DNA from: Diploscapter coronatus
Taxonomy: Eukaryota; Nematoda; Chromadorea; Rhabditida; Rhabditidae
Direction: 5' to 3'
NCBI GenBank assembly: GCA_964036155.1
Contig: OZ038422.1
Location: 3,247,201-3,311,200 of the forward strand
DNA length: 64,000 bases
Below, one piece after another: positions 13,015 through 50,400 of the stretch. The notes under the pieces are model-generated. The model did no database searches. It was not told the DNA's origin and saw only the letters and a list, made by a program, of their open reading frames with translations. The position numbers were made by a program, and so were the translations under genes. Position 1 is the stretch's first letter; each line of letters opens with the position of its first letter.

Positions 13015-16000
13015 CTACTGCTGTTTATCGTCATCCTTGGGATACTTTCTCTTGAGTGGGTTTGTAGAGCCAGATGGTATAGTCTGAAAAAACATTATCT
13101 TTGCATGGAAGATAATCACCTTTATGGAGGATACTGTTCTGGCGCTCGAAAGAGTTCCTCTACTATCTCTTGACGATATTAGCTAAAATATAATATATGC
13201 TAAAATTTTTTTTTTTTTTTTAATTACCGTGTCATTCCTAGCCCTATAGCTCTCTGATGAGGAATTATCAGTGTTGTTTTCCATCGAATCATCATCATCA
13301 GAATAAATGCCCAATCGTTCCTAAAATTTAGTAAATTAAAATGTGGTTGGAAATTTTTACGGATAAAAACGTTTTACCCAACGCCGACGACGTAAATTAC
13401 TGGGCATCATCCAGCTAGGCCCTGGAACATCCAGTTGATTTCCAGTCTAAAGGTTTCTTCGACTTATTTTAAAGGAGTACGAAATGACTTCTTGAGGACG
13501 CTCGGCTCTAACAGTCGGATACGGAGTGTCTTGCGGACTCGTTTCCGGACTTGCATTGGGAGTCATTACGAAGTCCATTGCGTTGTATTTTTTCACTTCT
13601 TCTTTCTGAAATAATTGATGGTCTTTGTTTTTAAAAATGGCAATTTTGAAATGACGGGATGATGTGAGGACGTTTGCTATAGTTAGGAATAGGGAAGGGA
13701 AAGAAAGTAGGGAGAAATATTATGAAAAAAGATAGGTATCGTCCTCATATCATCCCGCCATTTTTCAGTTCCCTAAAAGAGCTCCAATGAGCATATAAAT
13801 CGATCGAAAAAGTAGCATCTAAGCAAAGATGTTACCGGCCGCTGATTCGAAACACTGCTAGCCAGCGACGATATATCAGAATCATCTTGATTCCTCACGA
13901 AAATCGATTCTTCGTGTCTTTGTCTCTGAAAAATTACATTCTCAGTTTTTCTTGAAAATTTTGCCACCATTGCTTGTCGATTCTTTCTTGAGATGTCATT
14001 CAATTCAATTTCATTTCTAGGCGGTGAACTTCCAATATCGGGTGAACGGAACATCTTAAAAATGTTTTCTCTAATGTTTTTTTTTTTTTTAATTTTTTAA
14101 ATTTTATAATTATGAGTTTATTTATTACAATAAATAAAAGGTCTTACATTCCAAATATTCGACATTATGCCACTTCGATCTGTTTGAGAAGAATCTTGAC
14201 TTGTAGACGGCACTTGATTATCGTTCTTAAACTAAAAATTATTTGTACAACCTTTTAAAATCACATTCTGAATTCTGAAGCTCTTATTTGAATCGCTATC
14301 TGCATAGAAAGCGTTCAATGGATAGGGAGTATCACTCTCGGACTGAGGCTAAATAAAATTATAACGCTTCTTTATCAATAAAAAATCGAACTATTGAGAT
14401 TGAATCAATCCTGCTAAGGTCATCAATAGTAGACTCAGAAGAATCGGGATTAGTCAAATTTGGATCCTTAGGACCACTGTCAGGTACTGACTAAATTTAT
14501 AAACCAATACGCTTCTAAGGGCAACTTGCAAATCTCAAGCCCTCAAACCATGCCAAATAGTGTGAGAAAAGAATCGTTTTCCCTACCATCCCTCACCCTA
14601 TTTCGCATGGCTTGAGGGTTTGAGGTTTCTAAATTGTCTTTTTAAGCTAAACTTCGTTGATACTTATATTACAATTACCGTAGTTAATGTATCAGTTCTT
14701 TCAGCTCCTCCCTGTGAAGAACTATCATCCGATTTACTAAATTTTCAGATTTGATTTTTTCGATTGGAAGTTAATACGTAATACTTATAGATTTATGTTT
14801 ATAGGATTTATGAACATATAAAAAAGCCATTTTTTCAAATATTTCCAGCTAACTTACTCTGATACACTTTGCCCAGAAAGACGATCGAAAATGGTCTGAC
14901 TGGTTTTTCTTATACCAGGTGGGATCGTCATTCCAGCTCTGTAGATCCAGACCCCAACACAGACGATGATGATCAATGTTATGAGTACAGCAATTATCAC
15001 TCCGGTTTCAGTACCGGTCTTTAAATTTTGTGCTAATTTACGAACTTCAAATGATACTCTCCATTACTCCTGAGATCAGTATGGTCATTCTTTCTGGGTA
15101 AAAGGATGATGCCAAGCCTTTCCAGTTATTCTGCGCACCTTGCTCTTTTCGTTGTCTTCACTTTTCACACTATTTTCGCGGTTCGCGTGGCGTTTGCACC
15201 TTCCTTTTTTCCCATAGACAGAAGCAACACCGATCTCGGGATAAAAGAGTGTGGCTAAGCTTACAGTTGAATATTTCGAGATGCAATAAGTATAGCAACA
15301 TTTACAGTCGCCAGATCTAAATTTGCAATTGAGCAAAAATTAAAATATACGGCAAATTTCAATATGACCCCCTAATGCGAAGGTATTTTTGTTGATAATT
15401 TCTTTTTATAAATTTGAAAAGTGAAAAATAATATCTAATAGGTCAGTGCTTTACTGACTAATTGTAAGGCTGGAAGAATGTTCGATTTCTATTTTGTTTC
15501 GGAAATTCTTCAGGAATAGGAAAAACTACTTTCGATTTTTGTGTTTCAGGATTTTACCTTTCATCCAAGCCTGTTCGGCTGTTATTAAATGACGAACTGG
15601 CGTACTAACCAGAAGTTTACGTAAATTTCGTTTACATTTACGTACACCTTCGGTACTGACGGACCATATAGTTTAGGAGTAGAGAAAATATGCTAGGTAT
15701 ATAGTGAAATAGTGTGGGAGAAGGAAAGGGTCCGTCAGTCCGTCAAACATTACTTGCCCTCTGTTCCTGACCTAGATTCTCCCTTATCGTAACATTCGGC
15801 GGGTTCAGGAGACGGATAAGGCCTGCATTCGTGATCAGGGTTTGAACAATTCTGATTTTCCCTGAATAATTCATTATCGAGCCAGAAATATGAGAAGTTG
15901 AAAATAAGGGGAAAGATGAAAGAATTTTAGGTCCGTTATTAATTCCCACGTGATATTTGTCCATTTATAACAAACTGAAAGGCAATCCGGGCAGGGCAGT

Positions 16001-19000
16001 GCCTAAAGAGATCCCACATTTTCAATAGAAGATCTCTTTAGGCGTTGTCAAATAACCGTGCATCCACTTGCACCTCTCAGATAACGAACCAAATAATTGA
16101 ATATTGGATTGAATAAATTTAAATGAAATATTAATGAAATTTCTTACGAGCATATTTGTGCTCTCAGTTGTTTGCTGCAATCCGAAGGATCCATGGTGCA
16201 CATGCAGGGTGTTAAACTGGTATTTCCCTAAATTTTTCCCATTTAATTTCCATTAGAGCTTAACAGTTTTGTATTGGGTTGTTCCACAAGTATCCAACCC
16301 TTTCTAAAAAATTCCATAATCTTCTTTGGGATTTATGAATCAATATGGGGTCTTCGGTATATATGCAAGTTGGATAAGGGCTTTAAATAGTAATTTTAAG
16401 TCGACACTTTTCGAATTACGCATAAAACGCATGCATGAAAAGTAGTAGGTTTTCCCAGATCTGGTCTGCTGCAGCGGATGCGTATTTCTGGACAATCTCC
16501 ATCATTTTGAAGCATTAGTCAGGTACTTATTGCGGTAAAAAATTGGCATTTCAATTGCAACCTTACGTTTTTTGTGCGCAAAGATATGCATTTTCTCTAT
16601 ATAAAATCAGCAAAATCAACTTTAAAAAATCGATCGTAGAATCGATGAGATTATACGAAACTTTTGAACGCCAATTTATAACTCTTATAGTTTCTAAACA
16701 ATTTTAAAATTACTTTTTGATAGCCGGTACCAATATTTCCGCATCGCACGCACAATTCAGAAGACGAGTTCAAGCTGTATGGTTGTTGACATGCCAGACT
16801 CGTGTTACTTACATCGCAAGCACTGTAGTAATTTATAGGTCTAAAAATTATCGATTTAACACATTAGTTTCGAATTAATAATTCGAAATACTTACTCTGG
16901 ACACTTAATGACATTGCAATCACTTAGATGTTTTCCATAGGTTCCATTTGTGAATGTAAGATAGGGACAGTTCGAGCATTCACCACTCTCCGACTGAAGC
17001 TTAATTTCCTAATTATAAATATATAAAGAAAAGGTAAATTTATTACATTCCGATATTGAGTTAATGGATTATTGCAGCAGTTACCATGACACGATGCACT
17101 GCTCTGAAATAAGAGTTATTGAGCTTCATGATAAAATTCTCGAATGTTAATTAATTTGCAATGCGGAACGACCACTATTATAATTTTAGAAGAAAAAATA
17201 TCAATGGCCCTGCTTAAAGGGAAGAGGAGCGAAGGTTTTATTCACTTTGCAAAGTACGGGCCTTAAAATCAATAAAAATTCAAATTTTACGATCATTACA
17301 CCTTTCTGCAACCCATTAAATGACAGTTAGTGAGTTTAGCCTTACCTTCTGGCCAGGAGAATCATTGCACATTCCGTTTCCGCATGGGATGCAGCTTCTC
17401 TGTCCCCATTGATCTTGATAATAGTTGATGCGACACGGTTGACAACAGTCCGATGTTGAGTTATAAAAAGATCCAGCAGAGCAATTCTCTAGAAAAAAAA
17501 TTTCAATAAACCTAGAATTATTTAGAGTGATAAAGATATCAATCTCAAACACGATGAGAAAAATTCAAGAAAATTGCAGAATCTAATTTCTAATCTTTTC
17601 TTTGTCGTTATTCTTCAAGTGAATAGCTTTACTCGAACAATGAAATGATGAATTTTGCATAAATTAAACTCAATTTACTGACCCTTAAAAATCTAAAATT
17701 TAGATATCATGGTCCTTACTAATGCAATACTCAATGCTAGCAGCTCCAGGACCAGCCGTTGTTTTATTATCCGGACATCCAACGCAGCTCATCGTCGAAT
17801 TGTCGTAGAACGTTCCTCGCTCGCAATCGATGCATTTTGGATTACCTTGATCGTCGTGAGACAAGTATTTTCCGGGAGGACACGTTACTGAAATTGGATC
17901 TACTAATTGTGTAACACCAGACCAAGGTAGGGAGATCGTCAGATGTCTCTTGCGACCTATCCCCTGCATATTTACTTTATATATTTTTAGTTCTAATTTA
18001 CAACCATCCAAAAATGCTTTTCAGAAAAATGATATTTTGAATATCGTTTATTTTTGCAGTCTATTTATGGCATTTTATTTCCACTTGACGAAAGCTCTAA
18101 GTTTGTATAACAGACTAGTCACTAGAACATCTCCAGAACTATTTTTCATTTCTTCGTAAATTCTTCGCATATCGGACGGAAGCAAAGCTTACCACATAAA
18201 ATTTCAAGTATGTCCACATTAGAATGTCTTGTCAGAGCGCCGTTCCTGCCGATGTCATCAATGTATGGGTACATATGTTTTTCGGGACATTCAATGCGAT
18301 TTTCAGTATAACTCGTATTCGGCACGATCCGATAATTTGAATGTGTTAGTCGATCGACAACACTAGTGTTGATCATTATGTTGGATATTCTGAATTTCGC
18401 CCCAAATTAATCATTTCTTTTATTATTGCACAGGAATACATTTCAATCAGATAGGCAAGTTGATAGGTTCCATTCGCATTCACTTCGTCTTGACCTTCGC
18501 ATGATAGAGGCATCGTCACGTTGCAATTTTCGCCAATAGCGCAATTAGGCATCGCTTCAATGATCGTCTGATTTAGTGTTGCCGTCATCTAAATGGGTTT
18601 TTCAGATATTTTTAAGAAGTCGATTTGTTTTTCGTCAAATCTCCTTCGAAACTTCACCACTTGGTTAAGTTAGGCAGTTTATAAATGACTGAATGTGCGA
18701 AACGCTTTCTTTGTAATTGACGAATGACAGAACAGTCTTTTTCTATACTATTCCTCCCTTCTTGTACTCTCTAACATGACATTCCGTCATTCACAGACTG
18801 CGAGTAGAGACAACATAAAACATTCTTTCATCTCATCCTATCGTATGCATCAAATTTGGAATTTCCTTTCAAAAATCAAAATGTTGTTTTACATTTTCAC
18901 AAGTGGTGTTGAATCCCATAATGCTCTCGGATAGGGTCTGTCTCGGTTCCGCCATATCAGTGAATCCGCATTTATAAAGCACGATCTTGTCATCGTTGGT

Positions 19001-22000
19001 TTCTTCTCCGTACAGCCAAGATCCAGTCGAGTCGCAGACGAAGAACTCAGGTTTGTCGGGTGTGGGGTAGCTTGCATCATTGCAGTTGACCCTGACCGTC
19101 ATGTTGACATTAGATCCTTTGATATCATTCTTTTCGATGGTTCTATTCATGAATTCGATGGCTCCATTTATGGCTACGAGTTTATGCGCGGTCTCAGAGC
19201 AGCTACTCCTGTAGACGGTCACTTCGAAGGTGCACGTGGCACGATTGCCCGAGCCATCAGTCACTTCGTAAATCCCGATTGATGTTCCTCTGAAAGCGTC
19301 ATATAAACCGAATGAAGGACGGGCCGAATTCGGTATACCCTCAGGCTTCTCAGACAAAGAAAATCGAAATTGATCGATGCTTTTGCGAGTCTTAGGTTGC
19401 GTCGATTTTCTTTGACCAACATTAAGTGCTTTCAATAAACAGTAACAAATCAAATAGCAGTAAATGGACACATCTTTGCTTATTGATTTAATAATTTTTA
19501 GTTTATTGGAACAGTACTGGCAAAAATACTCTTCAGCTGATTTGTCTCTGAGGATGCAACGCATTCACCCGTTATTCATTTTTCTTAGAAAGGGCTGGTT
19601 AAATTTGGTTTATTTCAAAATTTCAATAAGCATATTGTAGAGCATCGTTCTTCATGCTGAATATTTCTCTTTATTTTGAAAATTTGACTTACACCCCAAA
19701 TCTTTGCCCCAGCAAGATATTCTGTCTGTAATCTTTGATGCATCCACTGTTGTCATAAAATATCGGATTGTTCCATAGATCCTCTGGAATTTCGACTCCT
19801 TCTGGTTCACTCGCATTTGGAGACGTATTTATTTGCATTGGATAGTAGAATGGACACGTTACGGCTATAGGTGGTTGGTTGTCAATGCAGAGTTCAGTGG
19901 GAATGTTACACACATCGGTAACATTTTTTAGCCTTCCATTGAGGCAATTCGCGTTTCGAATGACGCCGGGCGATCGCTGCTCTACGCCTCTGTATTTTCG
20001 AGTGACATTAGCAGCCAAACTCGACCAATCGAGTCGAACTTGGCCATCCTGAAAGCAAATAATATGTTCTGAGAATAACAGCGAAAATCTGTAGTGTCTT
20101 GAATCTTTATAAACTGAGAAAATGCCTACATTGAATCAGGGCTTAAAATATTTCCTACAGCTGATATGATTATGAGTTTCTGGTTTTATAAGATTTCTAT
20201 AATGAGAGTACTCACATCTTCTACGTTTGGCATATCTCGTTTTCTTATGTTTCCTTCATAGATTCGGAATTCACTAACGTATCCAACATAGAGGTTATTG
20301 TCATCATTCCTTGGTGCTAGTGTAAGATTCCATTCATTTCCGTAAGGAGCTGTCTTATTTGTTTGACAGCTTCTGCTCTGTTCCCCATTATCTCCGTCCA
20401 TGTAAAGATCATATTCTCCCATTTCATTCAAATAAATACAGTAGTAGTGGAACGTGTTTACAAGCTTGTAAATTGATATATTTTGGTTGTGCGTATCATT
20501 GATACATTCGGAAATATCATAGATGGACATGGACATCTCAAAGTTTTCTATTCCACTTATGCTCATAAAAGGCGCTTTCGTTCTCCAATCAAATGTATTA
20601 TTCTCCAAATTTTTATATATCGACGGAAGCAGATACGTACAGATTGTGATATTTTTCAAAGTATTTTCGCCGAAATAAAAAGTCTTTGATATTATCGGGT
20701 CCGAAGACACACTGCCAAGAAATAGTAAGTCGTAAGTGTAATTGCTGTTAGGTTCTGTGACATTTGCACGTATGGTACAATGTGATCCATTCTCATCATG
20801 GTATTCAGCACATTGACAGTAGGGCTGATTGGTAGTTTTATTGAGGACGCACCGACCCTTGCAGTTGTTGACGAAGTCCGCGGTGCACGGATCGTTCACT
20901 GGTTCGGAACAATTCGTTCCCGTCCAATTTGGAGAGCATATGCATCTCTTAGGACCAGTGGAAGAATTATCACAGGTGCCTCCATTCCAGCAAAGTATGT
21001 CACTGCAGTTTACAGCGCTCAACGAACAGTCCAGACCATAGAATCCATCGTTTTCATTGCAAACACAGGCAGATCCGTCAAACACTTCATTAGGCTGCTC
21101 GCATTCATATTCAATACAAAATGGTTCCAAATAGCCTAAAAGTCGTATTTCCTGCATTTCCTCGTACTTGAGTAAAGTGCAGATTTTAAGTATAGTTAAA
21201 AAAGCTACTATTCGTCGGAATGTTGGAACGTGCCTTTTTCCATAATATATCTCAATTAATTTGACATTCTTCCTATACCTATCTGCGTTCCGACATTTCA
21301 ACAAATAGAATTATCAATGAAAAGAGTGATATGAGATCAGAGTTGTTGCAGGGTGAAAAGACTCATTTCTGTATTGGAAAAATATTGATGAAAAGTATTA
21401 TCGATTGGAGAGAACGTCGATATTCAAATATTACACGCCATTCGTCTTTTTTCTCTTCTACGCGACTCACTATTTAGCTCCAAATTCGATTTCTAATTGC
21501 CGATGAATATCGACTTTCTCTCCAATCATCTATACCTAGGTCGCAATCACATTTCTGCGCTGTATCATTGCATTCTCCGTGGTAACAATCTGTTGCATTA
21601 CAGAAGTCTTCAATTTTCACACAATTCGAGTCGCTGTTATTGTAGAAACCTGGAGCAGGGATGGAACGAAATTTCGTTTCGATTTTGAGAAACATTTTTT
21701 CAGCCATTTCGTGAAATCTCGTTTCGTGATCGAAATTTGGTTTTAAATTCCGAGAAATATCGTTTCGTTAAACAAATTTTCCAACCCCAAAACAATTTTC
21801 GTTTGAAAATTTTCAAAAGTTCAAACGAAATTTCGTTTCGTAAAATTCGAAATTTTCATTTCGTTCCATTCCTGACCTAGAGGACAGATACAGGTGCATG
21901 TTCCATTTTGACTAAATTTGTAAATACAATTACAAATTTCTCATTTTTCTCTTACTCATTGGGTATGCCAGTATTGCATTGCTCTTTACCGCAAGGCACA

Positions 22001-25000
22001 GAACAGTTGTTTCCGATGTAACCCTCATCACATTTACAGGATATCTGAAGTAAGATTTTCAGAACTATCTTATGGCGAATATTCCAGGAAAAACGTGTTT
22101 GCAGAAACACACGTTGTTATTGAAGCCATCCTCTATCGTGCAGGTTCCATGATCGTTGCACCAGAAGGTATTACTACAATTCTCGCAGTGATCTCCGAAA
22201 TACTGTCCTTGGGGACAATCGCAAATGCATGTTTTGTTATTATCATCCCATGTTCCGTTTTGACCGTTGCAATCTGGTCTGCAGTCCTTCTAAAAACTCA
22301 TCTTTGGCAATGAACCAATTCTCTTCCAATTGAAGCGAGTGGATAAATTATTTCGAAGAAACTGGCGAGAGAACTCATGAAATTAGGTATAATCACGAAA
22401 AGCTTTACGTACCCAGCAATAAGTTCCATTTCCTTCGAACCCTGTATTACAAACGCACTGATTCAGTGTTATATCACATTGGGCATTTTTATCGCAGCTT
22501 TCACAAGCGGATATTTCACAGTGATCTCCAATGAAGTTAGTTCCGCTGCAGTCGCACGTGCAAATGTAGTTGGTAGAGTCTGGAGTTCTCACAGGACGAC
22601 GTGTCAGACGACCTTTGTGGAGACAATAGCAGTAGGGGGTTTCGCAGTGTTCTCCTTTGTAACCTGAAAGAAACGCATATAAAAAGAATCTTCTGGAAAA
22701 GTTAAACATCAACAACTAATGGCAGCAGTCATTGGGTATGGAGGCACGAACTGAAGCATGAATTACACACGTTTTTCAACAATATAGCTGCATGATTCCA
22801 ATCAAATCACACAATTCTTCTAAGGAATATTCGCTGTAATATTGTAAAAATATAATGCCGCCGTGCCGTCATACCGTCATTCTGTGATTTCCACCAGAAC
22901 TGGAGGAAAATTTCAGAACAAGGGATTATCTCTTTCTCTGCATCACGTGCACTTTCCTTTCTTTCTCCTCTTTTTCTCATCCTTCCGCTCTATTCGAAAA
23001 TTTCTGTCCAGCCCTGATTGTCATGTCTCTGAAGTAGCTAGAGCCAAAATAAAGAATTACTTACCACTAGCGCAGTCGCAATGGTATGTGCCATTCTCAA
23101 GATTCCTGCACGTCGCGCCATTGAAGCAGGGATCCATATCGCAAGAGCTGCGAAGATATTGACACCGATCGCCATAGTAGTTATTTTCGCACACGCAGGT
23201 CAACTCCCCAGCAACTTCACCATGACACTCGCCGTGATTATTACATGTTTCATTCAGCTTTTTGCAGAGGTCCACGAGTATCTCACAGTACCCTCCCTCA
23301 AATGCTGATATTCCCTCGTACTTTTTACACTTGCATGTCTCGTTTCCTTGGTTGTCATAGTAACATTCACCTCCGTTTTCACATGGGTCTGACACGTTGC
23401 ATTTGTGGATACAAGATGTCAGATTAAATGGGACGTAATTTTCCGAGCAATTGCAAACTTGTGTTCCATCGTTCCAGGTGATGATATGACCGTAAACGCA
23501 GTCAGTACTCGGTTCATTGGTTGCCTCATCCGCTTCATCGGATATCTCTGCACTGGGCTCGACGCAAGTTCCTCGATACTCGACCAACCCTTCGGGACAC
23601 CTTTCTCGCGCATCCAACGCCTCAAATTCGTTCGAATGACAGTAGCAATATGGTTTCGTCAGCCAGGTTCCATTTTTGCAGTAATTGTTCCCAATTAACT
23701 CACAGCTATTATCACAGGTTATATCTGCTAGTTCACCATCATAGTGAGCGGGTCGGTTGAATCTTCCGTTATTCAAGTAGTATGCCCAGCAGACTCGCTC
23801 TTCCAATTTGAAGTTTAATGGTATCCACGTATTTCCGGGGTTCTCCATCTTGCAAACTCGAATAGGTCTCGTTTCGTGATGATATACTTTTCCGTCTAAA
23901 CGATGATCTATTCTTATTATTTTTATACGAAAGTGGACAATATGTTCAACACCAAAGGCAAAAATGAATACCAAGGATGTAAAAATGTTCTCATTTATCA
24001 ATTATTTTGAAACGTTCGAGGTTATCATTTGTAATAATAAAAGGTTCTTTTCAAATAGAGAAAAGCGTATAAAAATCACCTCCAGAAGGCATATTGTAAG
24101 CCAACTTATTGAAATTCATTGTGACTTGAACTTTACTGCTAGTTATGCAGTTCTTATAGGTTAGGTTTGTCTCTATATCACAGTTTAGCACTGAAAACGA
24201 AAATTTTAAAAATAACCAATTAAAAAGTTTAACTCAAAGATTACTTCGGCATTGCGGCTCGCTAATCCATTTCCCATTGACACAGGTATTAGACACTCCG
24301 GGAATGTGGTAGTAAGGACTGAAATTATGAAGATCATAGAGGAGTTAGGAGAATTTGAAGTGGCAATATGATAAAAATTAGTATAAAATGATAAGATAAC
24401 GGTATCTTTATATATAAGGGATAGTTATTATCTCAAAATCTTACGCTGAACAGGTGTACTGCAGCGTCGTTCCATTGTAGAACTTATTCCACATGTAGGG
24501 TGCATCAGGAGGAAGGGTGACTTTTATAATTCTACCAAAAGGTAGCACTGGCAGAGGGCACGTCGCGTATTTTTCTGAAGCAGAGCATCCCGTTGGGATA
24601 TGGTGAGACCAATTCCCTCCAACTAGGCATTCGGAAAAAGTGTTCCCGATGATAGTGTAGCCTTGTGGGCAGATGAACTTCACTTGAGAGCCATAAGAAT
24701 TGTCGCCTCGCATGATCAGGCGATTTTTCAGCTCAACTTGAGGGCAGTTTTCAGAGAACATTATCGATCCCGCAAAATCACCACTGTTGGTTTCCAATCG
24801 AAGCACCGTGGACTTGGCGAAATTATTATGTCCAGCAGAAAGTTTAGCCTTGTTGTGGATCATGCCATCTATCTGAAAAGAAAGCTGTCCGTTAATAAAT
24901 TTACAAAATTGAAAAAAAAATTTATTTACCTTGATTGTTCCCAGCCGGTGGTTTTTAAAATTCTCAATCTGCCAAGTATATGATCGCCGATGATTTTCTT

Positions 25001-28000
25001 TGTAGAGCAAATCAAGCGGAGTGCGATTTCTACCCATTCTTCTGCGTAGTTGATCAGTGATGTTCCCAAACTTGGCATATTTCTTTTTAAAATTAGCTTG
25101 ATCGATAATATTCTGATCCTTTCGCTTGCGAAATGCTTGGTCTGGAAAAGAATAGTAAATGTTCCCATTTTTCTAAAAATTAAAAATTTGTTCGAACTTC
25201 TCGGAATCTCTCCGTCATCAACGCTCTCTAGCCTACGCTGCACAAGCGCATAATGCTGAGATGAGCGTCTTTCCTCATGGCAGCGTGATATAGTGGATGG
25301 CAAGTTAGGTTTTTGCCATTTCTTGACCGATAAGCAAAAGATTTCGGGCAAAAGAGCGCGCAGAGAAGCTCGGGAAAAGTTACAATTTCTGGGAAAACGA
25401 GAGCATCGAAATGTTACTAATTTCAAGTTGAACCTGGAATTCTTGGACGTAATCTTCGATCCATTTCAATTTCGATCTTTCGAACGAATCGATCACATCT
25501 TCCAAATGGCGGCTCAACAGCTTCAATTTTCATTGCCTGCTTCGCAAACCGCAATCGTTTCAGCTTATTCGTGGCCCACTTGGTGACAGTTACAGTCAAA
25601 TGAACGTTGATGTGCTGGTTCGTGTTCAGGAGAGTCAAAACGCATTTGGAATACGGGAGGATGTACAGAGTTGGATATTTATAAGTCTGCTTTATATCCA
25701 GGATAGGTTGATCGTTACACTCAAGAGTTAGTTTTGCATGGCCAGTGAATTCGTCAATCTAAAACAAACAAAATCAAAGTAAGAAGTCATTGTTGATAAT
25801 TGCGAATTTTATTTCGAATAATCTGAAACATACCATGATAATCAAATAATCATTATCATGCTCTGTTCGAATCATCCAATCACAAGTAACTGCCTCCATG
25901 GATTCATCATAGAAAATTGTGCCGTCAGATCTTGGATAGCAGGTTGTTCGATCTGGAAAATGTTCAAGTGGGGTGAAACGTTTTTTGCCGCTCATACTAT
26001 ATGTGTTGTAGAGAATCCTGAAGTTTAGCTTTTCTCCTTCTTCAAAGTGTTGATTGTAGATCTTGACGTGATTCGAGGTCAGATGATAATCTTCGCCAAT
26101 TCGCACTTCAGGAAAAGTACGCCTCCTTCCAGCAACTTCAACGAGACGTAGATTTGTCTAAAATTAACAATTCAAAATTTGTTTTCGGAAACATCTAACT
26201 TTCTCAAATGAATGCTCTCTCTGGTATTTTAATTCGCGAATTTTCAAAATAAATGGTTGTCCATCGGGAGATATGATTTCATGAAGACATTTTGCGAGAT
26301 CCTCGATTTTCCCTTTGCTTTGTCGATGGGCGGTGGATTCAAAGCATTGCAAATCGTTTTCCTGTTATAAAATATTTAATTTGTTCTAATAATTTTGGGT
26401 AATGAGTAAAGAGAAGAGAATTGTGATTGGGGCTGTGTACATGTACAAAAATTGTGCCTGTCCTTTACCACTACCTGCCACAATTATTACTCGTTTCCAG
26501 CGAAGTTGCATATAAAACTGAATTCACCAAAAGTTGCAAAAATTAGCAACCTTATTGTTTCGCAGTGTGTTCTGAGAGCTATTCATTACCGGTTAGCTAT
26601 CAATGCGAGTTGACTATTCGTGTCTTTCGTGACATTGCCCCGAGTGCTAGAATGACAATGAACAGAAAGACCTCTTATGAAAAGCGTTGAAAATGAGTCG
26701 GTAATGAGGAACCTTAACGACAGTTACCGCATTACAGAAGTTGTGTTGCTAACTTTTTCAGCTTTTGACACATCTCATTTTTTATGCAATGTCGCTGGAG
26801 ACAAGCGATAGTCGTACCTGTATCGTGCCTAGCAATGACTTGATCTGTGAGCAGCCCTGATCGAGAACAAAATTTATCTTATATTTTAACCTCACCTCTT
26901 GTATACTAGAACAAGTTTGATTCCATGTATTTTCAGTTCCATCAGCACATCTCGTTTGACTACGGGCGTTGTTCTTGTTGATGCAGTAACTATTGTCTAA
27001 ACAGCGGTACTGTTCTGAAATATAGATATTCAAGCTATTTTGAAATATTTCAAGAAGAATGTTAGATTTGTTTTCTTGAAAAGTTGTTCATTCGATAGAT
27101 CTACTCTTTTGTTTAACTACTCTCAGTAAAAGATTTCAATTACGACAAAATTACACTGACCATCTTTGCAAGCAAACGTTTGGCATAGAATCCGGAGAAG
27201 TTTATTGCAATCCTCCAGATAAAATCCGACATTATCGATAGAGGTCAAGTCCACCGCCACACAAGTCATATTTGGGTTCGTGTAATTTGACTGAAATGTT
27301 TTTCTTTTCGTAAAATTTGCAATATGTTAGCATCAGACATTTGTAGGCTGATTTCTCTTCCAAACCGACGTGTATCCCGAAATTAAGCCAGTTTGCAGAT
27401 CAGGCTTTATCAATTTCTGATTCCAAAATAGACCACTAAACTGGCGATGTAGAGTTAAAGCGATATTATTATCTGATTTTAGAGAATATTCTGAAATCCA
27501 CTTTTAAAATAACTCAAAATTCCTATCCATACCATAACTAGTCCAGTAGGTTCCATTAGCACCGATGCTTTCTAATTTTCTAAACAAATTAATTAGTTCA
27601 GGTAGGTTGAATGAATAGAGAGGGAATGAATTGTTGAATCTGAAAATTGATTCGAAACGAAAATCTGAAGAAAATCCAACGTAGATTCGCCACACAGCTT
27701 CTGTGCCTCAACAAAACTGACTGTTGGATAAGGCGTTCGATAATATGGCATGTAACAGGTTTCATCAACCAGGTACCAGTCAGAATTACCTAAAAATTAA
27801 AAGGTGATGTTTCCAGGAATCCTACTCTTTAGTAAAACCCCTGAGTCTGTTTGTCTGTCTGTTGTGTGTCCAACGCTATTGCTTGAAGTGGGATAATAAA
27901 AATATGATGATATATATATGGTTGGATGCAGAATTTTCCGGAGGTGTGCAACGTATAGGTTTTGTTTGGGTTTGATAATATAATTGGGAACTTTTACCTA

Positions 28001-31000: not shown

Positions 31001-33775
31001 TCGAAGAAACTTTTCTTAACATTTTCCATAGTTAAGGGATATTTTCAGAACAAAATCTTAGAAACAGCATAGTAAATTGAATCGGACTGAAATCCTGCAT
31101 ATATATGAAGAATACATTAGAGCATCTGTGTACAAAATTTGAGCCGAGATAATTCAAGTATTGCGGGTGTAGTGCTCTTGAACTCAAAGTGCGTTCATAA
31201 TTTGAGACAAGGGATTTTTAATTTTGTCGCCAACGAGTCTACTGATGAAACAGTTCAGGTGAAAAGTGGATAGATATTATTCTTCTGTGGGCTTGATAAT
31301 AGAAAATTATTTGACTTTTGATAGCATTAGTACCAGTCGGAACATTGCAAAAAAGAGGGGTGCGCTCATAATTTTGAGACACACCCTATAAGGTTTATTA
31401 TACCTTGAAAATGCTAGAAATTAAAAGATTCCCAATCCTGGTTCCGAATTTTTTTCAAAGTCGGTCCTGGCCCATCCCTGAATTGAGATATGATAATGCA
31501 ATCATAGCTCAAAAGTTTCCTTTTCGCAAAACTATCCACTGAAACTTTAATGATAAAATGCACTTTTTGATGAAAAATGACAAAAACTGATGGAAAAGGA
31601 TAATCAAGCACAGGGAATCTGAAGTTTATTCTCACTTTTAGACAACACAATTGTGGGTATTTACATATGAGCAGAATACGCTTGCTATTTTTAGAATTTG
31701 ATTGCCAAATGACTAAGACTAATAAAGTATGGTAAAGTAAGATAACCAAGTATGGAACATCCGAATCTGGGATATTTCCTTTTTAGTAAAATTGTTGAGT
31801 GTGTCTGAGCTTAGATCTCGATGCCTGATTGTGAGCAAGGAAACCCACAGATGGTTCGAAAGATAATCGTGACCCGTGTGCAACGTATAGTTTTATCGCG
31901 ATTTAGTTTTTAGCTAGCACAAATGCTAATTTTTGACTTCATTAACTTCTTCTCTTATGAAAAATTGAATAATGGGTAGTCATTATCCGACACATCTTGG
32001 CCTTGAAAGGTGGTCTCCAGATAGTGGGAAATGAGATCAATGAGAATGGGAATTCCAAATGCAGATATATAAAATTAGCAAATTATCGTATATTCCAAAT
32101 GCATAATGGCAAAGGCTTAACAAAGAATTGGTCATTATCATTAGGGTCAAGGTGGAACTAGAGAGATTCAATGGGACCAGATAATTTCTATGGTTGAGAT
32201 AAAATGAATAATGGACCGAAAGATCAATATTCATTATTTTTGCCAAATGTTCATTATATATATATATTTTTTTAAAAATAATTCAGTTTTTTTCTGCCTA
32301 ATTTACATATCTAAATACCAATATTATGCCAATTTTTAATGGTAGTCAAATTTTTGGATAAACATTTCATGTATATTTCAAATTATAAAGCGAGTTCGAC
32401 CCAAAAAGCAAGATTTTAATCTTAATTCACAATCCAAATTAAAGTCTAAATTAAAATTCAAACAGGCCAAATTCAAGTATTAGCTTCGAACATCCAAATC
32501 CATGTTCAATTTCAAAAATTCAAGGTATTTCAAGTCCAAATTAAACAAATTGAAGGTCGAAGTCAAGATCGAAAATCCCAGACCAAATTCTAACCAAGTT
32601 TGGGCTCAAAATTTCATATAAAGCTCAAATGAAAACTCAAAATCACATCTACTCTATTAGTATTTTCGTAAAATATGTTTGTCTGTTTGTGCGCGCTTAT
32701 ATCTAGAGATGTGACCACCCAATTGAGATGGGATTTGCACCAAAAGATGCGTAATTTTCCGGCGGTGTGCAACGTATAGGTTTTGTTTGGGTTTGATCAG
32801 ATAATTGGGCAATTATCCTTATTAGAAGTGATTTCTCCTTTAATGAATCGATTTTTTGCAATTTTATGGAGGAAAAGGGGCTTGAAATTTTTTTGCAAAA
32901 TCTTTGAAGAGTTTTAGAAAATGACATCAATGGGATAATTGAATGATGAAAAAGAAATATTTGAAATGATTGATTGAATTTTTTTTTCTAATTGGATAGT
33001 TTTAGTTTTATGGTTTGATGAATTCTCAGGGGGGAGAGCTATGAAATTAAAAATTTTGATAGTATGAGAGAGTATGAGCATGAAAATGAGAAATGCAACA
33101 AATGCAATGCATTCTAATTTAGAAACAAAATTGTTTTGGTGCTGGAGTTGGTGTTGTTTTGTTTTGATATTGTCTTTGGTTTGCACCAGAGATGTTGGCG
33201 GTGCAGAAATGGCGCACCGCACCGCATCACAAAATCAAAAAAGTTCCGCTCATCGTACCGCAAACATCCCTGTTTCACACTTTTGCGAAGCAAAAGTCCT
33301 AGCCGAAGGGGGCCGCGAAGCGGCCCCTGAAGGCTAGTTATATTATAATTTCTTTCGAAATGATTAAAAAAACACAAGAAATTATGTGCAATAGTAAGAG
33401 ATCGTTTCCCAACCCGTTTTTATACATACGCACCATTCTGTCACTTTTATATCGTTACAAAAATTTTAAATCACCCACTTTCAGAAAAAAAAAAACAACT
33501 GGCTATTTGGAAAGTTCAAGCCTTCAATTCATGTGAAATAGAATGAGAAATGGTAGGAAAAGGTTTCTTTCTCACATTATTTCGCATGGTTTGAGATTTT
33601 CAAGTTGCTAGAACAGCTTACTTAAGGTTTTATTGCTACAGGGGCATCGAGTTTCATTTTTCAGGAAGAAATTATCTGTATCCACAGTATATGAGGCGAA
33701 CCATTGAGATTTAGCAACATAATTATGCTTGAAATCAATAATAAATAGGCAAAATAACCGAATAAATAATTGCAT
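13015..33775 (-). CDS. Giant mosaic type I membrane receptor (CTLD-CUB-sushi-EGF-LamG-HYR-GCC2-TM), ~2,650 aa
   Basis: At least 46 exons, nearly all phase-checked. The signal-peptide exon is 33775-33622 (MQLFIRLFCLFIIDF...). A 5.8-kb intron follows, then the C-type lectin fold (27789-27161), an LDLa-like Cys patch (27014-26896) and a CUB region (26361-25434). An unresolved stretch lies at about 25200-25388. Sushi modules are at 24872-24245 (NCPQVELKN...C...GC; CVNGKWISEPQC). EGF-like repeats fill 23895-21536 and the start of exon 21135-20216, whose remainder looks like a pentraxin/laminin-G sandwich. Next come HYR (20048-18893, SIGIYEVTDGSGNRATC), GCC2/GCC3 or ephrin-receptor-like Cys repeats (17887-15265) and one TM helix (15018-14858, TETGVIIAVLITLIIIVCVG). 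A Ser/Asp-rich tail ends at a TAG at 13015-13017. This resembles polydom/SVEP1-like mosaics but is membrane-anchored. The ligand is unknown; adhesion or pattern recognition is inferred. Confidence 0.85.
13649..13763. repeat. Short palindromic element in a receptor intron
   Basis: The left arm AAATGACGGGATGATGTGAG and the right arm read in reverse, AAATGGCGGGATGATATGAG, match at about 24 of 26 positions over their full length. They are separated by a purine-rich centre. It lies wholly inside the intron between exons 13836-13925 and 13489-13605. MITE-like, no coding capacity. Confidence 0.7.
14522..14636. repeat. Palindromic MITE-like element, dispersed family member
   Basis: Inverted arms of about 45 bp: CAACTTGCAAATCTCAAGCC on the left and CAATTTAGAAACCTCAAACC on the right (reversed). 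The shared inner core reads CATGCGAAATAGGGTGAG or a close variant. Related sequences are at 33497-33608, 37770-37885 and 38679-38815, each keeping the CTATTTCGCATG-like half-core or its degenerate form. All are in introns or intergenic DNA. Confidence 0.6.
21404..21526. repeat. 123-bp MITE, copy A, next to a splice donor of the receptor gene
   Basis: The terminal repeats ATTGGAGAGAACGTCGATAT and, reversed, ATTGGAGAGAAAGTCGATAT match at 21 of 22 positions over 22 bp. A second copy is at 48108-48233. The receptor donor site (minus strand, 21535) lies 9 bp outside the element. Confidence 0.8.
21656..21874. mobile_element. hAT-like MITE (219 bp) that makes up the receptor intron 21650-21876
   Basis: The ends are CAGGGATGGAACGAAAT on the left and CAGGAATGGAACGAAAT on the right (reversed). 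The interior is rich in nested palindromes around CGAAATTTCG. The 8-bp flanks are acctggag (21648-21655) and acctagag (21875-21882). Read on the minus strand these are CTCCAGGT and CTCTAGGT. The gene splices at AG|GT in both: the donor is in the right flank and the acceptor in the left. Joining gives ...CTCTAG+GT TTC..., which translates as CICPLGFYNNSD, an uninterrupted EGF-like module. The spliced product therefore equals the pre-insertion sequence. Confidence 0.85.
26529..26767. repeat. Inverted-repeat element in a receptor intron (26362-26895)
   Basis: The arms CAAAAGTTGCAAAAATTAGC and, reversed, CAAAAGCTGAAAAAGTTAGC differ at only a few positions and enclose about 190 bp. No coding capacity. 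MITE-like; I could not see a target duplication. Confidence 0.6.
27824..28370 (+). repeat. Array of three diverged copies of a ~170-bp intronic repeat unit
   Basis: Copies start near 27866, 28050 and 28212. Each runs: GTCCAACGCTATTGCTTGAAG or a variant, then an ATAAAA-rich spacer, then GGTTGGATGCAGAATTTTCC, then GTGCAACGTATAGG or GTGCAACGTAAAA. Further copies begin near 28863 and 30019, and partial copies sharing the GTGCAACGTA end occur near 29586, 31886 and 32768. Repeated TTTAGTAAAA-like starts precede several units. Confidence 0.7.
28481..28563 (+). repeat. tRNA-like (SINE-type) patch
   Basis: TGGCCGAGTGG at 28490-28500 is a perfect class II tRNA A box (Leu/Ser type), and GAGAGTTCGGCTC about 50 bp on is a degraded B box. 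The acceptor stem does not pair, so it is not a functional tRNA. Similar but weaker patches lie at about 29105-29210 and 30259-30330. They suggest a tRNA-derived SINE component in the repeat array. Confidence 0.45.
29215..29745. repeat. Segmental repeat copy 1 (pairs with 31508-32055)
   Basis: About 530 bp closely similar to 31508-32055 in the same orientation. Both include ATTGTGGGTATTTACATATG and the later GAAACCCACAGATGGTTCGA. Copies differ by scattered substitutions and small indels, so the duplication is not recent. Confidence 0.75.
30335..31481. mobile_element. hAT-like element with 8-bp target duplication, carrying a nested element
   Basis: The left end is CAGAGGTGGGCCGGGA and the right end, reversed, is CAGGGATGGGCCAGGA (13 of 16). 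The flanks are attgagat at 30327-30334 and at 31482-31489, identical over 8 bp; one extra A lies between the right CCCTG and its duplication. No transposase frame is present. Most of its length is the TA-flanked element listed next. Confidence 0.65.
30472..31386. mobile_element. Tc1/mariner-like non-autonomous element nested in the hAT-like element
   Basis: The termini AGGTGTGTCTCAAAATTATG and, reversed, GGGTGTGTCTCAAAATTATG are flanked by TA on both sides. Inside is a long foldback: the arms at about 30478-30688 and 31003-31208 are inverted copies of roughly 210 bp around a loop of about 300 bp. The short frame at 30779-30988 is not transposase-like. Confidence 0.65.
31508..32055. repeat. 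Segmental repeat copy 2 (pairs with 29215-29745)
   Basis: Second copy of the ~530-bp repeat described at 29215, in the same orientation. It lies directly outside the hAT-like element's right flank. Confidence 0.75.
33281..33338 (+). mobile_element. Helitron-like 3' end with two GCGAAGC hairpins
   Basis: A 6-bp stem closes on a GAA loop at 33281-33295 (TTTTGCGAAGCAAAA). An 8-bp perfect stem with the same loop is at 33309-33327 (GGGGCCGCGAAGCGGCCCC). Six bases later the sequence ends CTAG (33334-33337), followed by T. A hairpin a few bases before CTRR|T is the usual 3' signature of Helitrons. CTAGCC at 33299 also pairs with GGCTAG at 33332, giving an outer stem. The matching 5' TC end was not identified and there is no Rep/helicase frame. 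Confidence 0.5.
33497..33608. repeat. Palindromic MITE-like element (family of 14522-14636)
   Basis: It shares the half-core ATTTCGCATGGTTTGAGATT and the flanking AAGTTGC with the copy at 14522. The opposite arm is a degraded inverted version (AAAGTTCAAGCCTTCAATTC). It ends 13 bp from the donor of receptor exon 1. Confidence 0.5.
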
Positions 33776-34329
33776 CGCAATTAGCGCCGCATTTGAAGAC
33801 CTTGCTGAGGAAGTGAAAAAGCGTTTTGCGATCTTATCGATAAGCCTTAGCAGATGGCACGCACAAAATGGGCGTGGCAATTATCGGCTGGTTTGATCAC
33901 TCACTATCAATTTTACCTTCACTTAAACTTGCATATTCTTCGTGATAAGTTTCTCTAAATTACAAGAACTAAATATTTCGTGCTCAATAAAACCACTTTT
34001 AAATAATTTTTCCTTCCATACTTCTTATTCGATTAATTATTGTGCGATATTCCATTTTTTCAAAAGTTATTTTGAAACATATTTATTAGCAATAATAATA
34101 ATAATAATAACATCTTAAAAGAGAAAGGAAAGCATTGAAGAAATAAATAATCTTATCAAATTTCAATATTCTTGAGCAACTTCAACCCAACTATCGATCG
34201 ATCGAAAATGAAAACGAAAGGAGGAAAATATTGGCACAGATAGCACAAAATAGAGGAAACGAGACCTGTATTCAATTATAGCTGCTAATTATTGCAGTTT
34301 CAAAATTCTATTTAAAAAATAATGATAAA
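33776..34329. other. Intergenic gap between two minus-strand genes
   Basis: About 550 bp upstream of the receptor start and downstream of the astacin stop, so it should hold the receptor promoter. The start could be extended in frame to 33880, but the ATG at 33775 puts the signal peptide at the N-terminus. An AAT/AAC trinucleotide run lies at about 34090-34112. Nothing else seen. Confidence 0.55.
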
Positions 34330-37300
34330 TTAACATAGCTGACAACTTTTTGCGCACTTGCTCTTCATGTAGTCCTGGAAGATCGGCTGGGTGCACATTC
34401 CGCTGTTCGCCCATCGTTCGCACCACGATCTAAGGTCATTCAAGCTTGAATTTAATCGATAAATTTTGAAATATATTTAAAAAATATCCGAGCATCGAAA
34501 TACAATCATCAATTTAGTCACTTAATCATTACAGTTTAGTACTGTTTTCTAGATTAGCTTCATAAAAGAAATTCCCTTCGACATCTTTGAATAGTTTATC
34601 TAAAGTTTTCTAGAATGCTTCAGAACAGTCGATATCGCGATAAAGATGAAATTGTTTGGTTTGATGATCGTCTTTGTGACATACCTTGAGTCCTGACATC
34701 CATTGTCCTCCTCTTCAATCGATGCATCACATTTATTGCAGCTTCGTGGACAATTTTCCCCCATGAACCTGACACTGAATCTGGAATCGCAATGACCGGC
34801 TCGGGCAAGGAACTCGCAGTCGCGTCGTCTGAAAGATCAACATTTTCAGTTACTAAATGACGACCTGACGACCCCTATAGTTATTGTGTCCCAAATGGCA
34901 ACACTATTTCTTTTCTTTCTTCTTTTCTAACAGTATTTTTGGGGGTGACTTTCTCTTCTCCTATCTCTCCTCGTGGTCAGCTTCTCCTCCCTTTCTTTGT
35001 GTTGAAATTATATCGCAATTGAGCGGTCTTTTATCTGTCTTGAATAAATATCCATTGTTAATCATTTTGTTGTCTGTATCTTTGTCAGCTAATTACTAAC
35101 CAACCCAGAAAGTCTCATCAAAGGTCCCTTTCTCTTCATATCGCTGTTGCCTCAACCTCAGCATTTATTTAGAATACACTTAATTGTACATGGTAAAATG
35201 CCGACGATCATTCGAGAATCACATCGATTTTTATCATTTGTCTTTCCACAATATAGCCTCCTAATTAATTTATAAGACTTACCGATCTTCACACTTCCTC
35301 TTCAGAATTAATTGCGACTTCGGCAGCTTCCCACTCTTTTCATTCGTCGTTGACCCCCCTCCACTCGCAGAATTCGTCCCAATCGCTCCATTTCCTGGTT
35401 TGACTGTAACGACGACGGGCTTTTTCGTGGCTGATTTTACTCGAGTAGTTGAAGCAGACGCTGATTCTGGGGTTGTTGCTGAAAACTCGGGGCAAATTTT
35501 GGAATATGAATAAAACTCAACTGAATAAACACTATCTCAAGGGTGTTTGAAATATTTGCAACTTGACGAGATATCGCACGATAGGTTAGAAGAAAATAGG
35601 ATATGATAAGAAAATTCTCTCCTTCTCTCACATGCTATTTTTCAAATTGCGAAATTTACAAGTTATCGGAAATCGAAATGAGAAAGATATGTTACAAAAA
35701 TGTTCCTATTTGATTAGAATTTAAAAGAATTGATGCGTTGTTTCGTGAACGGCGATTTCGATCGAATCGAATGACTCACAAAGTTGCGGGCAATTGTAGA
35801 GCTTATTGATTTTGTGCAAATCGTTCTCGCTGAACCCGACCCTCTGACCGATTTCCACGCCTTTCTCCTTCGGCTCGATCGTCGGTTTTCCGTTCTATGA
35901 TTAAATATATAGATTTTTAAAAATTACGAGAAAATGATATTTGTAACCTTAGAGAAAGCTGTTGGTGAATAATGCATAACCTAAAATTTAGTATTTTTAA
36001 GTAAGTTGATAAAAGCTCCCTACCGATCCATAATCGTACTTGGTATCCAGGTGATCGATGAGATTTAGCGAGTATTTATCGAATTGATCTAAGATTTTAA
36101 TTATTCCCTAATTCAATAGTTTATTTCTGAAAATATCACGATCGAAAATTATAATAGACATTGGATATTCAAGCTTTTTCTAAGTATTACAAATTTTCTA
36201 AAATTCAACCTTGTAATCCCGCCTCGACATTGCTCCAATTTATCGTTACGTAATCATCTCGATCTGCCCTACCTAAAATACCATTTTCCTTTATTATCTC
36301 CACAAAATTTAGTCAGAATAATTGTTCTCCATTTTCACGTTCAATGTTTCGAAACAAAAATCGGTTGTCATGGTTAGACTTGGAGATGTTTTCAACAAAT
36401 GAAAGAACAACATCCAATTGAAGAATATTTGAAGAAAGGTGATGTGAAAGAAAAACTCACTTTGTTCGTGGAAAAATCCGACCGCGTGCATCAGCTCACT
36501 AAAAATAAAAAATAAGAGAAGATCTGAAGGAAGTATTTTACTGAATTATAATTCCTTTCTGGATACATCCGTCACCAAGACTAACTGGCTGTTTCCCACC
36601 TAAAACGAAATTTTAGGTTTATTTTTTGAAAATGCGCATATTTTTCCATCCTTATAACTGGAAGGTCAACTTTTTGCAAAGTTTATAGTTTAGCATCATC
36701 AATTTTTTGCATGGGTCACCAAACTTGTAACTTTTTACAGTTGGATTGTACAACGATAATTACTCTGCTGCTGTTCTCTTTTATGCAGTAGCAAAATTGC
36801 TCCAGAGCCAGTTTTGATCCAAGCGAGGATATCGTTTTGCCAGAGGGAAAATCCGCTGGTTTCTGTCTCTCAAAATCTCATGTTATTTTCAAGATCAAAT
36901 AAAGCAAAAATCACTAGAAAAATTATGTACTTTTAACGAACAACAAGTTTAGGCAAATCAATATTTCTCAGTCAATAAAAATAAAGAAGAAGAAATACCT
37001 ATTCTTCCTACCAAAGAATAGCACCCATCGTCAGGCACAATGTGAATGTAATCCTGATCGGCGGCTGATTTTGGCGCAAAATCGATACACGTCTTTTTAC
37101 GGTACTCTTCGATTGCTTCAGCGATTTTGGAGCGGCTAAATTAAAGTTTGTTCTTAAAATGACGGAAGAAATAGTTTGATTAAGAATTGCAATGAGGCTG
37201 CTTATAAGATGATGCTTGGAACATAGAAAATAGTCGTAAAAGTTGATTTGGAAAAAGATTACCTATACGAAGAGTATTGCGAGGAAATCGTGTAGGGGAT

Positions 37301-47400: not shown

Positions 47401-50400
47401 TTTTCGAGACATTGAAGTATCATTCGATAAAAAACGATACATTTCAGACGATCGACGCCTAACTCACATTATCGCTTCACAACATATTTATTCCTAATTT
47501 CTATACGAATAATTCGATGATTCTGCGAATATTTTTGTTGCTGGTAAGTCGTTTTTCGCTTTTCGCCATCATCATTTTTCGTTGTTTCATTACTTTGCAT
47601 TTCGAGCGAAATTTGAAACCTTGTGGCATTTTTGAACGAAAATTCGAACGTTGTTTGATATTTCTGTGAAATTTCGTTGTCAATCTTATGTGCAATGATG
47701 GAAAATTGCCCATTTGCTATGTGTAAAATACTGAAAGTTATGAAATCGCAAAACTCCTATCAACATATCAAAGTCAATGTATCAAATAAGTAGGAAGTCA
47801 GTCTTTTACAAATTATGCTATCGTAATTTCTGCAACAACTATTTTCCTCGTTCTGGATCTCATAATCCACATTCTAATACCAAATATGCAAATATGACCC
47901 TAATCTAAACTGAGAAAATGCGATTACTTGGGCAAGCAAATAATCTTCCGCTCAAGAAGAAGGTACAAGTTGAAGTGTTAATTGTCGTCTATCGCTTCTA
48001 TTTCCATTGTGTACTTGCAACTTTTTGTGAAGTGCTTTGGAAAAAATACCTTTTTTTTTACTATTGAAATAAGCGAAAAGCTGGGATTCACGCAGGTATT
48101 AATTAACTGGGAGAGAACGTCGATATTCAAAAATTACACGCTATTCGTCTTGCTTCTCTTCTACGCGACTCACTATTTCGCTCCAAATTCGACTTCTAAT
48201 TGCTGCTGCATGAATGCCGGCTTTCTCTCCAATCAACGATATCATAAATCAATCTAATAAGTTATGGATATGTATAACTTTTCCGCACCTCTGAATCACC
48301 CTCCCTTCTATATTTAATGGGAAATTTATAAGCACCCAAGAATTCTATTTATGCATGCTTGCAACTTTTCTATAAAGTATCTTTGAAAAAATAGCCTCGT
48401 TTTCCATGAAAGCAAGTGAGAAGTGAGGATGAAATTCAGCGTGTTGTTTCTGGTTGTGTTTGTTTTGGATTTGGTGCTGAACTGCGTGAGCAGATAGGCG
48501 AAAACAAACAGGAAGAAAAGGAATCGAGTTCAATACGACTGAAACATATTTTTCAAATAAATACTGCATATATATTTAGTAGCATCGCTTGATAAAAAAT
48601 TTCATCTTTCTCGGTTTCTTGACTTTTAACATTTTTTCCATCGACAAGTCACAAAGAATAATCATTTTATCTTCATATAAATGATTCAACCATTTCTTTG
48701 AAACGTGTCATTTTTAAAATATGCTGACATACCATGATTGTTTTTTAATGTCTCAATTACCTTTCAACATTAATCACATACTATCTTCAGAACTCCTAGT
48801 TCATTATGGGTATCTAATTGAGAGCAATAATTTAATCAATTTCTCAAAAATTCTATCATCTCATGAAAATATCAATATTTTTCCAAATTCTTCTTCGCCA
48901 TCTAATCAACGTTAATCTTTCGTCAGGATGTCTTTTGATTCGGCACAAGCTCAATTGCAAACAATTCCGTCGACTCTCCAGTGGCCATGAGAAAAATCGA
49001 CCGATAAAATCAGTCCGGGGAAATATTTTGAATTGATAGGCCAAGTGGCCGAAGTGCGAATTCGATCACCTCGAGGGGAAGCCAGGGTGATAGGAAAAAG
49101 GCATTACGAGGAAAAGCCGGTGCGAGATGCTGAGAAGCACCCGCTGATAGGCGCGCAAAAACGACGCAAAAGCAGATTGGCAAATGGAGCTGAGGCCAGA
49201 CCGACGCAAATTCACTATTCACACCTAGACCTGAGACTTTCGCATTGCCAAAGCAATCAACCTCGTTTTTAAAGTTCTTTTTTTCTCCATACAATCGCAT
49301 TATTTGAATAGGTTTTCCGAAAATCTTAGGCATAATTAAGTTCATCTCTATAGCGTTCTAGCGTTTTTTATGGTGCTGATATCGATCCTAATAGAATGAA
49401 ATTTACGTAAGTACTTAAGTCATATGAAACTGTTTCACGAAAATCTTCATATCAATCTATGCTCTCAATACTTTAATAATGAAAGATATGCGTTTGAAAA
49501 TGAAGTCGCCCTCCATAATCTTCTGCTAAATTATTTTCACTTAAAATATAGTATTGTTGTGCATCGTTGGTATCTTCTTCCTATTTATGTGTGCGCCATT
49601 TTTGCTCGCACCAATATTGACTCTTCCGTTCTTGAATTTCATGCAAAATGAATGCACTGCGCTATTTCGGTATTTTTGACTCGGGAAAGCTGAAGTTTTC
49701 GGAAGACAGAAGAAGCTTATTTACCGTTCAGACCAATGATTGCCAAACCTATACAATTTATTCGCTCTCATTCCTGAGCCATAACTGCAGCAGCCGCAAA
49801 TAAATTTGCTTTTATTTCGAAAAAATTGAAACACTACAAAATTTTCTCTTTCAATTCAAAAAGGCCAAATTTTTGCTTTTTCTAAATTTAAAATAGCAGT
49901 TTTCTCAAATATTTCATGGCTCAAACTACTCAATGCTTCTGTCATAAGACCTCGTTACTCAATGCTAAAACATTTTCTTCTTTCATGCACAATTACTATT
50001 GTTTTCTTTCTGATCAAGGTATTGATATGATATGAAATCTATCCTGATCAATGGACCAGTCTAAGTGATATCTCTATCGCTGAGCTCGCACAAACAGCGC
50101 ATAAAAAGTGCCGCTGCTCAAACTGCGTGTGGTGCGTGCGGTTGCGTCGCGGAGACATTCCGGTCCGTGCGCTTGCGTATTTACACGTAGCGACAAACTC
50201 TCGCCAGGGCATGTCGAAAGTCATGAGCCAATATGTCAAGTAGCTACCGATAAAAGACTCTCGGGCAAAGCAGGGGAACAGAAATAAACACCGAAGCAGG
50301 GATAATGACAGGTTCTTTGGCTCCATGATTTCATGTTGATCGAATCGAAATTTCGCCAGACCGATGCTAACGAACGCAAAATTCTTTTCGTAATCAGCTA

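Follow-up and report, generated by a model that had tools for sequence, protein, structure and literature searches.

A single MITE that inserted at an AGGT site within an EGF exon is likely to have created a spliceosomal intron, both splice sites of which would come from the duplicated target; this reading is drawn from the sequence. It has direct support in the anatomy of the element, in the repeats flush with its ends, in an independent protein model that shows the junction, and in the presence of the element in both haplotypes.

Anatomy and genomic copies of the element

At 21656..21874 on the minus strand, the window (the whole stretch of 64,000 nucleotides that was analysed) carries an element of 219 bp that is bounded by terminal inverted repeats (TIRs) of 17 bp. 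The TIRs, CAGGGATGGAACGAAAT and ATTTCGTTCCATTCCTG, match at 16 of 17 positions (94%). On the plus strand, positions 21648–21882 consist of ACCTGGAG (21648–21655), the element and ACCTAGAG (21875–21882), and the two 8-bp direct repeats are identical at seven of eight positions. A sequence-only reading of this DNA had described a 219-bp element with CAGGG-type ends and 8-bp flanks, and these values agree with it. MITEs of the hAT type are marked by an 8-bp duplication and CAGGG ends. Because both features fit, the element is best placed in the hAT-like MITE group: it has an 8-bp duplication (7/8) and a short CAGRG TIR (16/17), its allele and duplicate are of the same kind, and TIR comparison adds relatives with 8/8 duplications.

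The order on the minus (coding) strand is TGT CCT CTA G|GT, then the element, then CTCCAG|GT TTC TAC. The AGGT-bearing duplication is present at both intron ends and is flush with the TIRs. The upstream copy, CTCTAG|GT (21875..21882, minus strand), is the putative source of the 5′ splice site, and the downstream copy, CTCCAG|GT (21648..21655, minus strand), that of the 3′ splice site. As had been claimed for the two duplication copies, they supply a GT–AG pair, and its use removes 227 nt: a predicted phase-1 intron at 21650..21876 (minus strand), made up of the element plus one repeat copy and based on the gene model and the junction in the Diploscapter pachys protein.

On both strands of the window, 167,841 GT..AG pairs lie 60–600 nt apart, and in 70 of them a flush 8-mer repeat matches at seven or more of eight positions. 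Among these 70, the TIR match was 16/17 for the pair 21876–21650 and at most 10/17 for all others. The other 19 introns of the host gene model reached no more than 6/8 for the repeat and 9/17 for the TIRs.

The genome searched comprises 169.7 Mb in three contigs of 87.7 Mb, 82.0 Mb and 13,378 bases. The smallest encodes mitochondrial proteins in the invertebrate code, and its gene order presumably resembles that of rhabditid nematodes. The two large contigs (C1 and C2) match at ~92% around the host gene. In tblastn pieces they were 86.7% and 84.1% identical to the D. pachys protein, so neither is near-identical to it. A report on the D. coronatus genome gives a paired assembly of 170 Mb, with single-nucleotide differences of 5.7%, and also describes RNA-seq of this species (PMC5483258). 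We infer that C1 and C2 are two haplotypes of Diploscapter, probably D. coronatus.

DNA searches located the C2 allele of the element at the same site (C2:3078461-3078726, 266 bp) and a 219-bp duplicate with one substitution in an inverted segmental duplicate (C1:4018422-4018640). The element differs in length by 47 between C1 (219) and C2 (266), with 10 substitutions in 215 aligned positions and 55 gapped positions, and the adjoining exons are gap-free. For fifteen other introns of the host gene, 208 differences were counted in 2,933 aligned positions between C1 and C2. As the element occupies the same site in both haplotypes and in the duplicate, the insertion is older than their divergence.

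The upstream repeat copy has a substitution in each haplotype: it reads CTCTAGGT in C1, as it does in the duplicate, whereas C2 has CTACAGGT. The downstream copy, CTCCAGGT, is identical across all three genomic copies. The simplest ancestor is therefore CTCCAGGT, encoding Cys-Pro-Pro-Gly-Phe, which is a common EGF motif.

The segmental duplication combines three parts of the window (17272–23301, 26375–27820 and 33338–34426), inverted and brought together at C1:4014000-4023000. It lies ~0.75 Mb away on the same contig, shows 95–98% identity and carries the middle exons of the host gene.

Splice junction and host gene

The partial host gene model has 21 exons at 15753..26112 on the minus strand (model ends provisional). 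According to the D. pachys protein and Pfam, it is an orthologue of D. pachys WR25_18947, and 1,637 of 1,807 positions aligned with isoform C agree. Pfam was run on eight open stretches of the gene. Sushi, EGF, EGF_2 and Ephrin_rec_like domains scored above the cut-off in four of them, and the remaining four gave no domain above it. For isoform C from D. pachys, the Pfam domains above the cut-off were astacin, EGF and HYR; by eye, there is also a hydrophobic stretch near the C-terminus that resembles a membrane span.

Three exons surround the predicted intron in the gene model (all minus strand). The exon at 21956..22044 precedes a 44-nt intron (21955–21912) and is followed by a 35-nt exon at 21877..21911 (TCAAAATGG...CCTCTAG), which encodes DQNGTCTCICPLG and has the same length and frame in C2 and the duplicate. 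Downstream of the element, the exon at 21536..21649 encodes FYNNSDSNC...CDCDLG. The first and the last of the three are supported by the D. pachys protein as well. The 35-nt exon is also present in that protein, so the short upstream exon of the sequence-only reading stands.

Splicing at the two repeat copies is predicted to give DQNGTCTCICPLG|FYNNSDSNC, and the D. pachys protein has the same reading. Isoform C (P0001), which is 91% identical over the aligned positions, is continuous across the junction: CICPLGFYNNSD. It has the 35-nt exon and contains GIPNDQNGTCTCICPLGFYNNSDSNC, which is what splicing at both repeat copies would yield; this protein model speaks to the junction only, not to the presence of the element in D. 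pachys DNA. Removal of the element and one copy restores the coding frame in the gene model and by comparison with the D. pachys protein, which reads across the predicted junction. The claim that splicing restores an unbroken EGF-like module is thereby supported.

When the 35-nt exon is given a fixed start, three in-frame, stop-free GT–AG pairs are available per genomic copy, and in all three copies the repeat-based pair has the best score. Weighted by the other introns of the gene, the donor AG|GTCAGG ranks eighth lowest and the acceptor sixth lowest of 20 gene introns, which makes both splice sites ordinary. We infer that the junction is used in vivo. It is very unlikely that it goes unused, with the element retained, other sites spliced or the 35-nt exon skipped. 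Such skipping appeared in the first automatic gene model, which kept the acceptor CTCCAG|GT and joined it to a donor at 21990; it was rejected, as the D. pachys protein contains both the exon and the junction. The alternative in-frame pairs lose EGF residues and score lower. A predicted RNA hairpin (z −4.8) pairs the donor region with the acceptor region and could hinder splicing. Moreover, two exons have a one-base alignment gap to C2, and this may reflect a frameshift in C2. Against an unused junction, the compared exons contain no stop, and dN/dS between C1 and C2 is 0.33 (dN 0.041, dS 0.124; 1,351 codons, the two gapped exons being excluded). Between the window and the segmental duplicate, dN/dS is 0.40 (1,059 codons). 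The flanking exons of the element evolve under purifying selection.

A hairpin in the element RNA is what a palindromic MITE yields, and no function is assigned to it. A known structured RNA was rejected: the Rfam scan of the window returned no family at the gathering score.

The position of the intron raises the main alternative. Three of the 11 CxC..G-type EGF motifs (CxCxxG[FY]) of the gene model, including this one, carry a phase-1 intron in the same Gly codon, with minus-strand donors at window positions 23064, 21876 (the element intron) and 21535. As two neighbouring EGF modules share codon and phase, an older intron is conceivable here, into which the MITE inserted and which it came to fill after a later deletion. 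The next intron (21535–21136) likewise holds a palindromic repeat. We regard this history as unlikely: both 8-bp copies span the exon borders and are flush with the TIRs, whereas insertion into an older intron should leave some of that intron's sequence next to the element on one side or both, and only an exact deletion could have removed it.

The palindromic repeat of the neighbouring intron, at 21407–21534, is a different one. Its ends are like TTGGAGAGAACGTCGATATTC, it begins ~11 nt inside the donor, and another copy in the window (48110–48241) is 88% similar to it.

On the preferred reading, a non-autonomous hAT-type transposon would have inserted into CTCCAGGT of an uninterrupted EGF exon (TGT CCT CCA GGT TTC) in an ancestor of the Diploscapter lineage, duplicating the 8-bp target. 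The upstream copy would then provide the 5′ splice site AG|GT, with donor positions +4 (A) and +5 (G) supplied by the terminal CAG of the element. The 3′ splice site AG|G would come from the downstream copy, and the inverted repeat in front of it may serve as the pyrimidine-rich stretch (TTTCGTTCCATCCCTGCTCC, in which 17 of 20 bases are pyrimidines). Excision of the element together with one repeat copy (227 nt) by the spliceosome would restore the frame.

An ancestor without the intron was sought among related genes. All 18 matches in the search for an intron-less paralogue fell at the three known places. No intron-less orthologue was found, and no orthologue at all beyond Diploscapter: one search returned 44 proteins, which were the D. 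pachys protein and generic EGF proteins, a second gave three weak matches beside the D. pachys protein, and a third gave none. The length limits of these searches may hide shorter or longer orthologues.

Relatives of the element and the question of an introner family

Related TIR ends are common in the genome. Three patterns found 51 places against 1 in the control, 48 against 0 and 176 against 5; the 176 are places rather than distinct elements, and 100 of them were listed. For the 48-place pattern, 16 of 30 loci had flush duplications matching at 6/8 or better, and the locus, the allele and the duplicate account for three of these. A script looking for paired ends in 20 short stretches found them in nine; short stretches can miss ends, and a 38-bp MITE (see below) was under its length limit.

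Seventeen distinct duplications, hand-picked and including this element and two 1.4-kb elements, had T at position 2 in 13 cases and A at position 7 in 14. The set excludes two 6/8 cases (L063 and L069) as well as near-repeats of TTGGATAT. T at position 2 with A at position 7 is the hAT target pattern. The duplication of this element, in plus orientation, has only the A at position 7, i.e. half of the group pattern.

The hAT dimerisation domain (PF05699) was matched at nine places in the genome. Two of these belong to elements of 1.4 kb whose TIRs match at 14/14, begin with CAGGGATG and are flanked by 8/8 duplications. The 219-bp element shares only the first 8 TIR bases with them, CAGGGATG, and a longer TIR match to a transposase-domain element was not found among the nine hAT-domain loci. 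The two 1.4-kb hAT-domain elements (C1:32250068 and C1:44036272) have TIRs CAGGGATGTTCGCGGT and look recent. Elsewhere on C1, positions 60016082, 60032297 and 60048568 share both a TIR end and its 8-base flank. Their spacing of ~16 kb suggests a tandem triplication.

The sequence-only reading had spoken of introner-like intron birth and had looked to a genome search for element copies that coincide with introns. DNA searches with either the C1 or the C2 element returned only the locus, the allele and the segmental duplicate (counts are lower bounds), and no further copy that would demonstrate mobility of the element. Similar copies serving as introns elsewhere, which mark an introner family, were thus not seen in these searches. 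The DNA-transposon signatures of such families (TIR and target-site duplication) are present in the element.

Patterns combining the TIR end with AGGT within the duplication found five and four places, with 0 in the controls. Three places in each are the locus, the duplicate and the allele, so that three further places remain. A shorter AGGT pattern gave 2 hits and 2 control hits, and a second hAT TIR gave none.

The first of the three is a 38-bp MITE at C2:1132511-1132548 with the duplication GCAGAGGT/GTAGAGGT. The frame is open without the element and one copy. It was rejected as a second case by eye: in the gene around it, a donor further upstream is joined to an exon further downstream, and the MITE seems to sit in a pre-existing intron. 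Pfam found no match on the stretch around it. The second place, C2:33796988, was rejected for want of a partner end.

The third, a 92-bp MITE whose family is present in high copy number (TIR CAGAACTGAGACGAAAT), lies exactly on a 5′ splice site at C1:59131009-59131100 (positions 210–301 of locus L081). Its duplication GAGGTGAG is perfect, and C2 has the empty site (C2:55432380-55432640, L099). As C2 lacks it, this MITE moved after the haplotypes parted and duplicated an existing donor; it was rejected as a second intron maker because the donor was already present. It also means that relatives of the element have been mobile since the haplotype split and are able to land on genic AGGT sites.

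The abundance of related TIR ends and this mobility would suit a true introner family, with introns created at several places in the genome. We consider such a family extremely improbable, in view of the three copies returned with either allele, the fate of the three further AGGT-flanked places (an existing donor, an apparent existing intron and no partner end) and the results of the shortest pattern and the second TIR. The genome-wide TIR and AGGT patterns revealed no second intron-making insertion, and the TIR relatives include copies that do not coincide with splice sites, which counts against a family and not against the single event. As far as the patterns can see, this is a single intron-making event and not an introner family. 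The mechanism behind the introner-like label is upheld by the sequence, the D. pachys gene model and the three genomic copies, and a family that makes introns again and again is not supported by the genome searches.

Comparison with known intron gains

Introns made from DNA transposons were reportedly described by Huff et al. in 2016. The origin of new spliceosomal introns is mostly obscure; here the borders, the inverted repeats and the target duplication are all still readable.

In PMC3443670, a model of intron gain by transposon insertion at AGGT uses both duplicated copies. The present case is like it in the AGGT target, the duplication of the site on both sides, the donor and acceptor from the copies and the unchanged coding length. 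A table in the same text lists transposon-insertion introns from Oryza, Drosophila, Oikopleura and Zea. Our case differs from these in the nematode host, the hAT-type MITE and the presence in two haplotypes and a duplicate.

Introners were reported in 175 of 3,325 genomes and in only two animal groups, and some take both splice sites from the insertion site, as in Florenciella (PMC9860276). The word nematode does not occur in the main text of that survey. Like introners, the element is a non-autonomous DNA element predicted to act as an intron, with TIRs, target-site duplications and splice sites from the insertion site. Unlike these multi-copy families, it represents a single insertion event (PMC9860276).

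For ten Caenorhabditis species, PMC9169325 reports 168 new introns, a source for none of them and 166 of 168 novel GT–AG introns without exon indels. Ours is likewise a nematode GT–AG intron (those of Caenorhabditis being lineage-specific), with the difference that the type of source is recognisable.

A tentative and rather doubtful extension is that hAT ends are pre-adapted as intron makers and that part of the nematode intron gains with no source are old, eroded MITEs of this kind. The terminal CAG would complete an AGGT donor, and the opposite end would form a pyrimidine-rich stretch before the duplicated AG, in either orientation. If so, a hAT-type MITE with a duplication ending in AGGT would be spliceable at once. 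As a search rule, annotated introns of any nematode could be screened for a flush 8-bp repeat that contains AGGT, together with CAG...CTG inverted repeats.

In the literature searched, which lay mostly outside subscription papers, no description of this intron, or of Diploscapter introns made by transposons, was found. As far as the searches reach, the novelty is a nematode case with a readable source. A further animal parallel is the Doc1053 intron of Drosophila sechellia GM26034, one transposon-made intron and likewise a lone insertion turned intron (PMC3296678). Doc1053 is a retrotransposon, and the second copy of its duplication lies 15 nt beyond the end of the intron; in our case, the source is a DNA element and both copies are flush. 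The mechanism is already known, and a nematode intron with a recognisable transposon source seems to be rare.
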